Source of the DNA: Haloarcula sp. CBA1129
Lineage (GTDB): Archaea; Halobacteriota; Halobacteria; Halobacteriales; Haloarculaceae
Length of the DNA: 64,000 nucleotides
Reading direction: 5' to 3'
Assembly (NCBI RefSeq): GCF_008729015.1
Contig: NZ_RKSM01000001.1
Span: 3,410,001 to 3,474,000 of the forward strand
Every line of letters starts with the position of its first letter. Within the stretch, counting starts at the first letter, position 1. The notes below the pieces were generated by a model. The model did no database searches. It saw nothing but the letters and a program-made list of their open reading frames with translations, and was not told where the DNA came from. Position numbers and translations under genes: made by a program. Positions 4,529-46,244 of this stretch are shown here, piece after piece.

Positions 4529-6031
4529 ATGGCAACAGCGAGTGAGGACATCGAGTCCACGTACGAGCAGTTCCTCGACCACGTCCGCCGCCTCCACTAC
4601 ATCGGGGACGCCGGTGGCGTCCTCAACTGGGACCAGCAGGTGATGATGCCCGACGCCGGGACGCCAGCCCGGGCGAAACAGACGTCAGCCATCTCGACGT
4701 TGCACCACGACCTGCTGACCGACGACGATCTGGCCGATTGGCTGGCCGAACTCGACGACGCCGACCTCGACCCCGAACAGGAAGCCGTCGTTCGAGAAGT
4801 TCGACGGGACCACGAGCGGGCCACCAGCGTCCCCTCGGACCTCGTCGAGCGCATCTCCGAAGCGTCCTCGAACGCCCTGCCGGTCTGGAAGGAGGCCAAG
4901 GCCGAAGACGACTTCGACGCCTTCGCTGAGACGCTTGAAGAACTGGTCGAACTCCGCCGGGAGTACGCCGAGGCCATCGACCCCGACCGCGACCCCTACG
5001 AGGTACTGTTCGAGGAGTACGAGCCGTATCTCGGCATCGACACCGCCGAGGAGGTGCTGACCGAACTCCGCGACGCGCTTGTCCCGCTTATCGACGACAT
5101 CGCCGACAGCGACGTGACGCTGGCCGACCCCTTCGAGGGGACCTACGACGACGACACCCAGCACGACCTCGTCGAGACCGCGCTCGACACGCTGGGCTAC
5201 GACTGGGACCGCGGCCGGCTGGACACCGCACCCCACCCGTTTTCGATGGGCACGCAGTTCGACGCTCGCGTCACCACCCGCTTTACCCCCGAGGACCCGC
5301 TGGACGCGCTCGGGTCGACCATCCACGAGTTCGGCCACGCCACGTACACGCTCGGCCTGCCACAGGCGGAGTACGGCACGCCGCTTGGCGACAACCGCGA
5401 CCTCTCGGTCCACGAGTCACAGTCGCGCTTCTGGGAGAACCACGTCGGCCGCTCGCGGCCGTTCTGGGACTTCTTCGCTGCGACGGCCAACGACCACCTC
5501 GGGACCGACGCCACCGCCCAGCAGTTCTACGAAGCGTCCAACGAGGTGTACGACGACAACCTCATCCGGGTCGAAGCGGACGAGCTAACCTATCACATGC
5601 ACATCATCGTCCGCTTCGAAATCGAGCGGGACCTCATCCGCGGAGACCTCGACGTGTCCGAGGTGCCACAGGTCTGGAACGACAAGATGGAGGAGTATCT
5701 GGGGGTGCGTCCCGACACCGACGCCGAGGGCTGTCTGCAGGACATCCACTGGACGAACGGGGCCTTCGGCTACTTCCCCACCTACACGCTCGGGTCGGTG
5801 CTGGCCGCGCAACTGGACCACCACGCCCGGCAGGACATCGACGGCTTCGACGACCACGTCCGCGCCGGCGAGTTCGACCCGATCCACGACTGGCTCACCG
5901 AACACGTCCACCAGCACGGCGCTCGCTACCGAACCGACGACCTCGTTCGGGAAGCGACGGGTGAATCTTTCACCGCCGAACACTTCCTTGACTACGCCGA
6001 CGAGAAGTACCGCGCGCTGTATGACTGCTGA
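4529..6031 (+). CDS. M32 family carboxypeptidase (Taq-like)
   Basis: This is a 500-residue metallocarboxypeptidase of family M32, which trims C-terminal residues from peptides in the cytoplasm. The zinc motif IHEFGHATYTLG places H266, E267 and H270. The downstream HESQSRFWEN and DELTYHMHIIVRFEIE blocks are also typical of M32. Length fits the family. The ATG at 4529 was preferred over an upstream alternative because homologues begin close to this point and the preceding residues look non-coding. It follows the M20 gene and may share a role in peptide turnover. Confidence 0.93.
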   Translation: MATASEDIESTYEQFLDHVRRLHYIGDAGGVLNWDQQVMMPDAGTPARAKQTSAISTLHHDLLTDDDLADWLAELDDADLDPEQEAVVREVRRDHERATSVPSDLVERISEASSNALPVWKEAKAEDDFDAFAETLEELVELRREYAEAIDPDRDPYEVLFEEYEPYLGIDTAEEVLTELRDALVPLIDDIADSDVTLADPFEGTYDDDTQHDLVETALDTLGYDWDRGRLDTAPHPFSMGTQFDARVTTRFTPEDPLDALGSTIHEFGHATYTLGLPQAEYGTPLGDNRDLSVHESQSRFWENHVGRSRPFWDFFAATANDHLGTDATAQQFYEASNEVYDDNLIRVEADELTYHMHIIVRFEIERDLIRGDLDVSEVPQVWNDKMEEYLGVRPDTDAEGCLQDIHWTNGAFGYFPTYTLGSVLAAQLDHHARQDIDGFDDHVRAGEFDPIHDWLTEHVHQHGARYRTDDLVREATGESFTAEHFLDYADEKYRALYDC

Positions 6032-6120
6032 CACGACGGTTGACAACCCCAGTTCCAGATATCGACTCTGATACTATTGGGCAACTCGTTTTATATTCCC
6101 CTCCCATTGTGACGACCACT

Positions 6121-13553: not shown

Positions 13554-14417
13554 TCACTCCTCGCCACGGGTGATAAGTGACCCCTTGTGACACTCCGGAC
13601 AGAAGTCCCCGGCGCGCAGCGACGTTGATTCCACCTCGGTGGTGAATCCACACTCCGGACAGGCGAACTCGCCTTCCGGAACCGTCACGGCGCTGTCGCT
13701 GGTCGACTCGCCGCTCGAATCGTTGTCCGTTCCGGTGTCAGTCGGCATCGTCTCCGGCGACCATCCGTCCCCGTCGTCTCCCGGTTCATCCGGCCACTCG
13801 CCCGGCTGGCGGTCGCCACCGGCGGATTCCGACGTTTCCTCTTCCTCTCCGAGAATGAGCCCGTCGTCTTTCTCCGGGTCGGTCTCGTCTTCGGTCACCG
13901 GCTCTTCGCCCTCCGCGTCCGGGACGTCGACCGTCGTCGTCGGCTCGTCCAACTCAACGTCGCCGCTTCCTTCCTCGTCCTCGTCGCTGTCGTCGATAAT
14001 CTCAGCGTCGTCGGCCGATGGATCGACCGGCTCGCTGTCGTCCGTGACACCGTTGGTGACTCCCGCATCTCCCGGCGCTTCGACCGGGTCGTCGACGCTG
14101 TCCCAGCCGTCCGAACTCCCCGTGCCATCGTCGTCGGTCTCGCCCGCTGACGCGACCGTATCGTCGGTGGTGTCTGCCGACGCCGTCGCTGTCTCGCTTT
14201 CAGGCTCGTCATCCTCGACGAGATCGCTCGCGATATCCGACGGCGTCTCGATAGCCGTTACCTCCTTGTTTTCCGAGACAATTCGCGTATTTCCACACCG
14301 CTCACAGGTCTCCCGTTCCTGGATGGTGATGACGACTTCGCTACCCTGCTCTTCGCGCTCGCGCTCGACGGTGGTCTCACCGTACTTGTGCCCGAGGACG
14401 GAACATTTGAGACCCAT
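13554..14417 (-). CDS. Zinc-ribbon protein with long acidic linker
   Basis: This 287-residue protein has zinc ribbons at both ends joined by about 170 residues of Asp/Glu/Ser/Thr-rich disordered linker. The N-terminal module MGLKCSVLGHKYG...CERCGNTRIV resembles a haloarchaeal DUF of unknown role. The C-terminal module reads FACPECGFTTEV...GDFCPECHKGSLI. Two zinc ribbons suggest nucleic-acid or protein binding. It is divergent from the PKD cassette; the AT-rich region 14418-14565 serves both. Confidence 0.75.
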   Translation of the reverse strand: MGLKCSVLGHKYGETTVEREREEQGSEVVITIQERETCERCGNTRIVSENKEVTAIETPSDIASDLVEDDEPESETATASADTTDDTVASAGETDDDGTGSSDGWDSVDDPVEAPGDAGVTNGVTDDSEPVDPSADDAEIIDDSDEDEEGSGDVELDEPTTTVDVPDAEGEEPVTEDETDPEKDDGLILGEEEETSESAGGDRQPGEWPDEPGDDGDGWSPETMPTDTGTDNDSSGESTSDSAVTVPEGEFACPECGFTTEVESTSLRAGDFCPECHKGSLITRGEE

Positions 14418-45189: not shown

Positions 45190-45370
45190 TCGCGGTATCG
45201 CGTTTGACACGGGATCCGCCTGACGGGCTCTGCATGGGGATTAAACGGCGTTCCGGTCGAATACCGCCGGAGGCGACCGCGGGGCACAGAACGGCGGGCT
45301 GTAGTCTTCGTACTCGTCCATCTCTTCCAGATCGCCGGTCGTCGAAACGACGCTCCACTGGGGAGTCCGA

Positions 45371-45793
45371 TCAGGCCGACTCCGTATCGGATGGGGCCGA
45401 TTCTGTGCCGACAGCGCTCTCCGAATCTGTCGCTTCGGTGTTACAAGGAAGCGTGGCCGCCAGCCGCTTGGCGACCATCGGACTGACCAGACCGGCCAGT
45501 TCCATCGCTTCCGTCTCGTGGTCGTCGAGATCTAGCACGCCCCGGAAGAACCACGAGACAGTCACGTACGTCTCGTGCAGCTCCGAAGCCTCCTCGTGTC
45601 CTGCTTCGGTCAGTGTCACTCCGTCGTAGGGCTCGTAGGAGACCAGCCCCTGCGCTGCGAGCCGCTGACACATCTCCGTCACCGCCGCCGGAGATCTGTC
45701 GAGCATCTCCCCCAGATTCCCTGGTGCGACGGGCGGTTCGTCCCGGTGCTGGGCGATGTAGATGGCCAGCAGGTACTCCGGTGCCGTGCTCAT
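45371..45793 (-). CDS. DtxR-family metal-dependent transcriptional repressor
   Basis: The 140-residue regulator has the N-terminal winged helix (PEYLLAIYIAQHRDEPPVAPGNLGEML, recognition helix SPAAVTEMCQRLAAQGLV) and the dimerisation/metal domain (TEAGHEEASELHETYVTVSWFFRGVLDLD..ETEAMELAG). The SH3-like third domain is absent and is replaced by an acidic tail. It is the last gene of a three-gene operon (ATGA overlap with the preceding small gene) behind two TTAGG-N4-CCTAA dyads, so autoregulation by iron or manganese is likely. Confidence 0.88.
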   Translation of the reverse strand: MSTAPEYLLAIYIAQHRDEPPVAPGNLGEMLDRSPAAVTEMCQRLAAQGLVSYEPYDGVTLTEAGHEEASELHETYVTVSWFFRGVLDLDDHETEAMELAGLVSPMVAKRLAATLPCNTEATDSESAVGTESAPSDTESA

Positions 45794-45939
45794 CGCTCTG
45801 ATGAATCCCTTCCGCCCCCGTCGCTTGCTGTGAGCGTCTCGGTCGTTGACTCCCCTTTCGACCGCTCGCTGGACCCGAAGACCACTGCGTAGGCCCACGC
45901 CCACAGTCGAGCGCGTGACCGCTGCGGACGTTTACCCAT
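45790..45939 (-). CDS. 49-residue protein of the DtxR operon, unknown
   Basis: This small frame MGKRPQRSRARLWAWAYAVVFG, followed by an acidic Ser/Thr/Gly tail, starts inside the stop region of the upstream 85-residue gene (8-base overlap) and ends in the ATGA junction with the DtxR gene. The basic/aromatic N-terminal half might associate with a membrane. The tight overlaps on both sides are the main evidence that it is translated. No family recognised. Confidence 0.5.
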   Translation of the reverse strand: MGKRPQRSRARLWAWAYAVVFGSSERSKGESTTETLTASDGGGRDSSER

Positions 45940-46189
45940 CGTCTGGTCCCCCCGGAATCTCGCTATCGCTGTCGCCACTCGTTAGGCAGACGCCCCCGGT
46001 AGTGACTGCGGGGCACGGGCGGTCGGGCACCTGACCGTCGCTGAGAGCTGGAGACGTGGTCCGACACACACGCCGGCACCACGTGGAAGCTGTCGATAGG
46101 GCCCTCGACAATCCGAAACGGTCAGCCGTCGATTCTCGGCGTGGCCCTCGCCGCGTTTGTGTCCCGCACTCCGTACCGTCGTCTGCCAT
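45932..46189 (-). CDS. 85-residue Cys-containing protein under DtxR-type operators, unknown
   Basis: The frame MADDGTECGTQTRRGPRRES starts right at the predicted transcription start of a TATA box (46211-46218) flanked by two DtxR-type dyads, the geometry of a leaderless, metal-repressed gene. It has five Cys (8, 38, 42, 59, 68), including WCRRVC and RPCPAV. Composition is unusually rich in Arg for this organism, so a frameshifted or degraded gene is possible. It is coupled by overlap to the next two genes. Confidence 0.45.
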   Translation of the reverse strand: MADDGTECGTQTRRGPRRESTADRFGLSRALSTASTWCRRVCRTTSPALSDGQVPDRPCPAVTTGGVCLTSGDSDSEIPGGPDDG

Positions 46190-46194
46190 ATTTT

Positions 46195-46244
46195 TTAGGC
46201 ATACCTAACAATATAAAACGTCTGCGATTTTTAGGACAGCCTAA
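46195..46244 (-). promoter_or_regulatory. Two DtxR-type operators flanking a TATA box
   Basis: Two perfect 5-4-5 dyads, TTAGGCATACCTAA (46195-46208) and TTAGGACAGCCTAA (46231-46244), match the TTAGG-N4-CCTAA core of DtxR/IdeR-type operators. The TATA box TTTTATAT (reverse strand, 46211-46218) lies between them. The downstream dyad would cover the transcription start. Centres are 36 bases apart. The rest of the gap to 46482 holds nothing recognised. Confidence 0.8.

Follow-up and report, generated by a model that had tools for sequence, protein, structure and literature searches.

In actinobacteria, the DtxR and IdeR repressors act at boxes with TTAGG...CCTAA half sites, where iron represses siderophore and uptake genes. 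In E. coli, a small protein, MntS, is linked to the DtxR-family regulator MntR. Haloarchaeal iron regulators of the DtxR family have been described as Idr1 and Idr2 in Halobacterium and as Idr, SirR and TroR in Haloferax volcanii, with a regulon that includes siderophore genes (PMC11349517). Termination-reinitiation was shown in Haloferax volcanii for all overlapping gene pairs tested (9/9; Huber et al. 2019, PMC6728339).

The locus described here lies in a window of 64,000 nucleotides from Haloarcula sp. CBA1129 and comprises two iron boxes, a TATA box and three overlapping frames: ORF1, ORF2 and a DtxR-family regulator (Table 1). Its parts are of known kinds; what is new is their combination, and a relay of reading frames that appears to be kept instead of a peptide. 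Like Idr1/Idr2, Idr, SirR and TroR, the locus joins a DtxR-family regulator to an iron regulon, a comparison made by description. Unlike those regulators, this DtxR would be reached by way of leader ORFs, and it has no canonical primary metal ligands. The window boxes have the TTAGG...CCTAA half sites in common with the actinobacterial boxes, but each is a 14-bp dyad with an N4 core, and the pair is set 36 bp apart around an archaeal TATA box. ORF2 resembles MntS as a small protein linked to a DtxR-family regulator, a likeness by association for which no sequence relation is claimed; unlike MntS, it shares an operon with its regulator.

Table 1. Features of the locus (window coordinates)
Feature	Position	Strand	Remarks
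Iron box 1, TTAGGCTGTCCTAA	46231..46244	-	Perfect dyad upstream of TATA; in 12/12 genus loci
TATA box, TTTATAT	46211..46217	-	Starts 28 nt 5' of ATG; conserved in genus alignment
Iron box 2, TTAGGTATGCCTAA	46195..46208	-	Perfect dyad between TATA and start; 36 bp from box 1
ORF1, 85 codons	45932..46189	-	Probable leaderless leader ORF; open relay apparently kept, protein not
ORF1 stop/ORF2 start overlap, 8 nt, ATGGGTAA	45932..45939	-	Frame coordinates
ORF2, 49 aa, basic/aromatic	45790..45939	-	Predicted helix 6-21, then polar disordered tail
ORF2 stop/DtxR start overlap, 4 nt, ATGA	45790..45793	-	Frame coordinates
DtxR-family regulator, 140 aa	45371..45793	-	Fe_dep_repress E=1.4e-12; without SH3; M97, A100, G101 replace canonical primary metal ligands
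NifU-like gene, C-terminal remnant, LEEMDEYEDYSPPF	45289..45330	-	Gene intact downstream of DtxR in relatives

Iron boxes and promoter

The layout set out in the original prediction was confirmed: two perfect TTAGG-N4-CCTAA dyads lie around a TATA box, and the frames of 85, 49 and 140 amino acids follow with overlaps of 8 and 4 nt. An iron-box promoter and an operon with a DtxR-family regulator as its last gene are thus supported. When up to one mismatch was allowed, the window contained two box matches, neither with a mismatch, whereas shuffled sequence averaged 0.26 and reached two in 3 of 100 shuffles. Genome-wide, 21 perfect boxes were counted, and the reversed pattern, used as a control, does not occur. 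As read from the genome stretches around these boxes, the genes nearby encode FecB-type binding proteins, a FecCD permease, an ABC ATPase and an IucA/IucC siderophore synthetase. The palindromic box therefore recurs at iron-uptake promoters, and the box regulon can be called an iron regulon by the siderophore and ferric uptake genes found at its boxes. A literature search for the box sequence gave no match.

At about 12 of the 21 genome boxes, the distance from the box start to the start of a long ORF is 17-25 nt, which is what leaderless genes would show. The ORF1 ATG at 46189 lies 19 nt past the start of iron box 2, and the 28-nt spacing from the TATA box fits the leaderless start that had been proposed there, which is probable. 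Because of this spacing, the transcript would start at, or a few bases from, the ORF1 ATG. In 12/12 orthologous Haloarcula loci the two boxes stand in register with the TATA box and the ATG, with variable N4 cores and a box spacing of 35-36 bp. Where DtxR genes of the class have successive boxes upstream, exactly 36 bp is the commonest spacing (31/42 pairs).

ORF1 and the relay of reading frames

ORF1 had been put forward as an unknown protein, and in this the prediction was not supported. In the genus alignment its middle part diverges almost equally at codon positions 1, 2 and 3 (0.269/0.263/0.283, with 20% gaps), whereas the corresponding values are 0.059/0.014/0.291 for DtxR residues 1-115 and 0.127/0.119/0.188 for the first 25 codons of ORF2. 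The G-C content of ORF1 by codon position (0.64, 0.71, 0.66) is atypical, and among close relatives its middle is found in different reading frames. Only the first 13 codons and a stretch near the 3' end are well kept, at the DNA level. It is for ORF1, and for ORF1 only, that comparison with relatives revealed the unconserved, shifted frames that would speak against a small protein.

The feature conserved in all 12 genus species is that overlapping ORFs connect the leaderless ATG with the DtxR start without a break. Four layouts are seen. In seven species ORF1 runs by the 8-nt overlap into ORF2; in three, ORF1 stops earlier at a TGATG and ORF2 is N-terminally extended upstream to meet it; in one (G037, L015) the two are fused in a single 128-aa frame; and in one (G018, L008) most of ORF1 is lost and there are three steps, with frames of 13 and 15 codons before ORF2. 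When these stretches were dinucleotide-shuffled, such a relay arose in 0.5-13.5% of cases, depending on the species. Because the species are related, the 12/12 relays do not count as 12 independent events, but each of the four layouts is an arrangement of its own that arrives at the same result. From these comparisons it appears that what is kept in ORF1 is an uninterrupted passage for ribosomes and not a protein.

The search for mini-ORFs in this position was extended to another 48 loci (21 genera) in which a box lies 40-260 nt upstream of DtxR. A mini-ORF begun just after the box ended at the DtxR start in 42/48 loci (null 0.235) when the better of two possible starts was taken, a count that favours the leader hypothesis and was hence repeated with the first start only, giving 36/48 (null about 0.23). 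The junction is an exact ATGA in 38 of the 42. With one locus per genus, the mini-ORF ends at the DtxR start in at least 14/21 genera (P about 2e-5, a value that treats related genera as independent, although species and genera alike are non-independent samples). Mini-ORF length ranges from 11 to 56 codons, shared sequence mostly stops at the genus boundary, and the architecture is widespread without ORF2. At seven loci DtxR itself begins right behind the box. A GGAG-type motif precedes the DtxR start in 11/12 genus members (null from shuffles 0.33) and in 22/42 of the loci with a leader ORF (null from shuffles 0.23); the window has CAGAGCGATGA instead of the GGAG of its relatives.

Two other sets of leader ORFs were observed. 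In genera g25 and g75 (L160, L163-L166, L170-L172, L174, L177) the leader ORF of DtxR has 42-43 codons and is partly conserved in sequence. In the genome of the window itself, mini-ORFs of 24 and 25 codons (L089 near 13653-13746 and L092 near 6003-6102) sit between iron boxes and iucA/iucC-like and thioredoxin-reductase-like genes, and stop either 1 nt inside the gene or 2 nt short of it.

An upstream stop that overlaps or abuts the downstream start, the arrangement expected for termination-reinitiation, is found at both window junctions (8 nt and 4 nt) and in all 12 relays. The relay, the mini-ORFs elsewhere, the GGAG motif and the reinitiation known from Haloferax volcanii together suggest that ORF1 is a leader cistron, which would deliver ribosomes to ORF2 and DtxR by termination-reinitiation. 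The pairs studied by Huber et al. (PMC6728339) resemble the present case in their ATGA/TGATG overlaps, their haloarchaeal operon setting and the intragenic GGAG motif; the difference is that the upstream cistron in the window is a mini-ORF apparently kept as an open path, not as a protein.

ORF2, the iron cassette and the regulator

The claim that the two small proteins match nothing held for Pfam and NCBIfam, in which neither has a match, but not for ORF2 among the haloarchaea, where a homologue search revealed an iron-box cassette family. ORF2 occupies the same place across the genus, with 59-78% identity. Other genera and families have relatives directly before DtxR that carry the motif PRRxRAxxWxxxYxxLF and end in a polar tail, usually an acidic one, and a profile search (E<=0.01) found the family in 74/391 genomes of the class. 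Most of the strong hits adjoin DtxR and/or DUF7260, and ORF2 shows the motif and the place before DtxR and/or after DUF7260 that mark the family. By these comparisons we regard ORF2 as a genuine conserved small protein. Its structure model has a single helix (residues 6-21) and a disordered tail, with a mean pLDDT of 60.8, and is therefore too weak for a fold search.

In several families, the surroundings of the better hits follow the order box - DUF7552/7551 - DUF7260 - ORF2 - DtxR; another box and two small genes often come next, and DPS and FecB-like genes lie close by. In many genomes two small genes (55 and about 98-100 aa), without a Pfam match, lie behind a box downstream of DtxR (L077 4499-4967, L079 3254-3715 and others). 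Some genomes have the DUF7260-ORF2 pair without an adjacent DtxR, and in G436 the leaderless first ORF is an ORF2 relative. The closest parallel to the window layout is in G380 and G407, with the DUF7552 part alone before ORF2. Since in the window clade a DUF7551 gene sits elsewhere, beside a FecB-type gene with its own box, and DUF7260 genes are at two other places, none adjacent to ORF2, this clade appears to have a reduced form of the cassette. A literature search for the cassette DUFs found nothing, and the ORF2-containing iron cassette is undescribed.

The winged-helix DNA-binding domain PF01325 is present in the regulator (48 bits against a cut-off of 26; E-value in Table 1), and its helix-turn-helix is intact. 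The metal-binding and dimerisation domain PF02742 reaches 15 bits, below its cut-off of 27 (E=0.025), and 21.3 bits in the L080 orthologue. As predicted, a domain search of the 140-aa protein found no SH3 domain; this length is not unusual in itself, since MntR-type proteins of 139-142 aa are known from the PDB. In the alignment, M97, A100 and G101 stand in place of the E, E and H of solved homologues and are conserved in 83, 86 and 91% of orthologues, respectively, so that the canonical primary metal ligands near the EAC/E..EH motif are missing. For this reason metal self-regulation is uncertain and metal dependence is not claimed. The best named matches are from Haloarcula argentinensis, sebkhae, mannanilytica, japonica, amylolytica and vallismortis (79-83% identity).

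The NifU-like gene downstream of DtxR is intact in L007, L011, L014, L015 and L016; in G000, L006, L008, L009, L012 and L013 it is absent or survives only as fragments. A DtxR paralogue beside a siderophore cluster (G000 C1:1157059-1157458; L003, L005) lies in two overlapping frames, as if frameshifted. In another member of the genus (G010 C1:757091-757506; L187) the orthologous DtxR is divided between two frames; it may be a pseudogene, or the sequence may contain an error.

Alternative readings and significance

Taken as a whole, the locus is rather probably an iron-regulated and probably autoregulated regulator operon, with ORF1 as a coupled leader cistron and ORF2 as a real small protein of a reduced cassette. 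With iron plentiful, a DtxR-type protein would sit on both boxes and, because these cover both sides of the TATA box, would block transcription; repression of the operon by iron is what this arrangement suggests. On derepression a leaderless transcript would be made from at or near the ORF1 ATG. Ribosomes would translate ORF1, whose peptide would be largely irrelevant, pass to ORF2 by termination-reinitiation at the 8-nt overlap, make its basic/aromatic helix and polar tail as a real small protein, and from there reach DtxR through the ATGA overlap.

The three-protein metal-stress module first proposed, in which ORF1 and ORF2 are both functional small proteins, could draw on the conserved MADDGTxCGAQTG at the ORF1 N-terminus, the further conserved stretch GGVCLMSGDSDS and the breadth of the ORF2 family. 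We consider it improbable: the middle of ORF1 lacks codon periodicity and changes frame among close relatives, ORF1 shrinks to 13 codons in G018 and is fused to ORF2 in G037, and unrelated mini-ORFs occupy the same place in other genera. Nucleotide blocks conserved at both ends of ORF1, and two Cys codons conserved in most species of the genus alignment, would also suit attenuation, with downstream expression controlled by a leader peptide whose translation senses, for example, the supply of cysteine or iron-sulphur. This is very improbable, given mini-ORFs elsewhere that share no sequence and a search of Rfam that found no match to the leader up to E=0.1; on this Rfam result a structured RNA in the leader was also set aside. 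Some peptide or RNA role for ORF1 may exist nonetheless, given the conserved first 13 codons and part of the 3' end. There is likewise little chance that ORF1 is functionless, decaying debris of DUF7552/7551 and DUF7260 genes. Such genes do fill the place between box and ORF2 in relatives, including G029 of the same genus, two f3 genomes retain the DUF7552 part alone, and the NifU-like gene is a visible remnant at this locus, but an open relay would not survive in debris in 12/12 species. A resemblance of MADDGTECGAQTG to ASDDG..CGRTGERP had raised the idea of such a remnant, which was rejected when profile searches in all three frames of the 12 species detected none (E>=0.6).

A further question is which protein binds the boxes. 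Another one may do so, because the same genome encodes a paralogue (L004; G000 C1:381457-381798; 236 aa) with the canonical-looking residues EEAEVLEHH; the encoded DtxR, with M97, A100 and G101 where solved homologues have E, E and H, could then be a downstream effector of the iron response. We think binding by such a canonical DtxR/MntR-type paralogue somewhat unlikely, since the helix-turn-helix of the encoded DtxR is intact and orthologues in other families also lie directly behind such boxes, as expected of autoregulators. Autoregulation of the operon by its own DtxR is the probable arrangement. It is conceivable, if doubtful, that ORF2 is the first example of a small-protein partner that binds and modulates the atypical DtxR, with the iron signal arriving via the cassette (DUF7552/7551, DUF7260 and ORF2) and not by direct metal binding.

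If the leader-cistron reading is correct, haloarchaeal repressor genes would commonly be served by a mini-ORF that carries ribosomes and does not make a protein. Many unconserved small frames in archaeal genomes would be explained in this way, and caution would be needed in annotating them as proteins. The locus also brings to light an undescribed iron cassette, in which a conserved small protein accompanies a DtxR-type regulator whose usual metal site is absent; this can be tested in genetically tractable haloarchaea.
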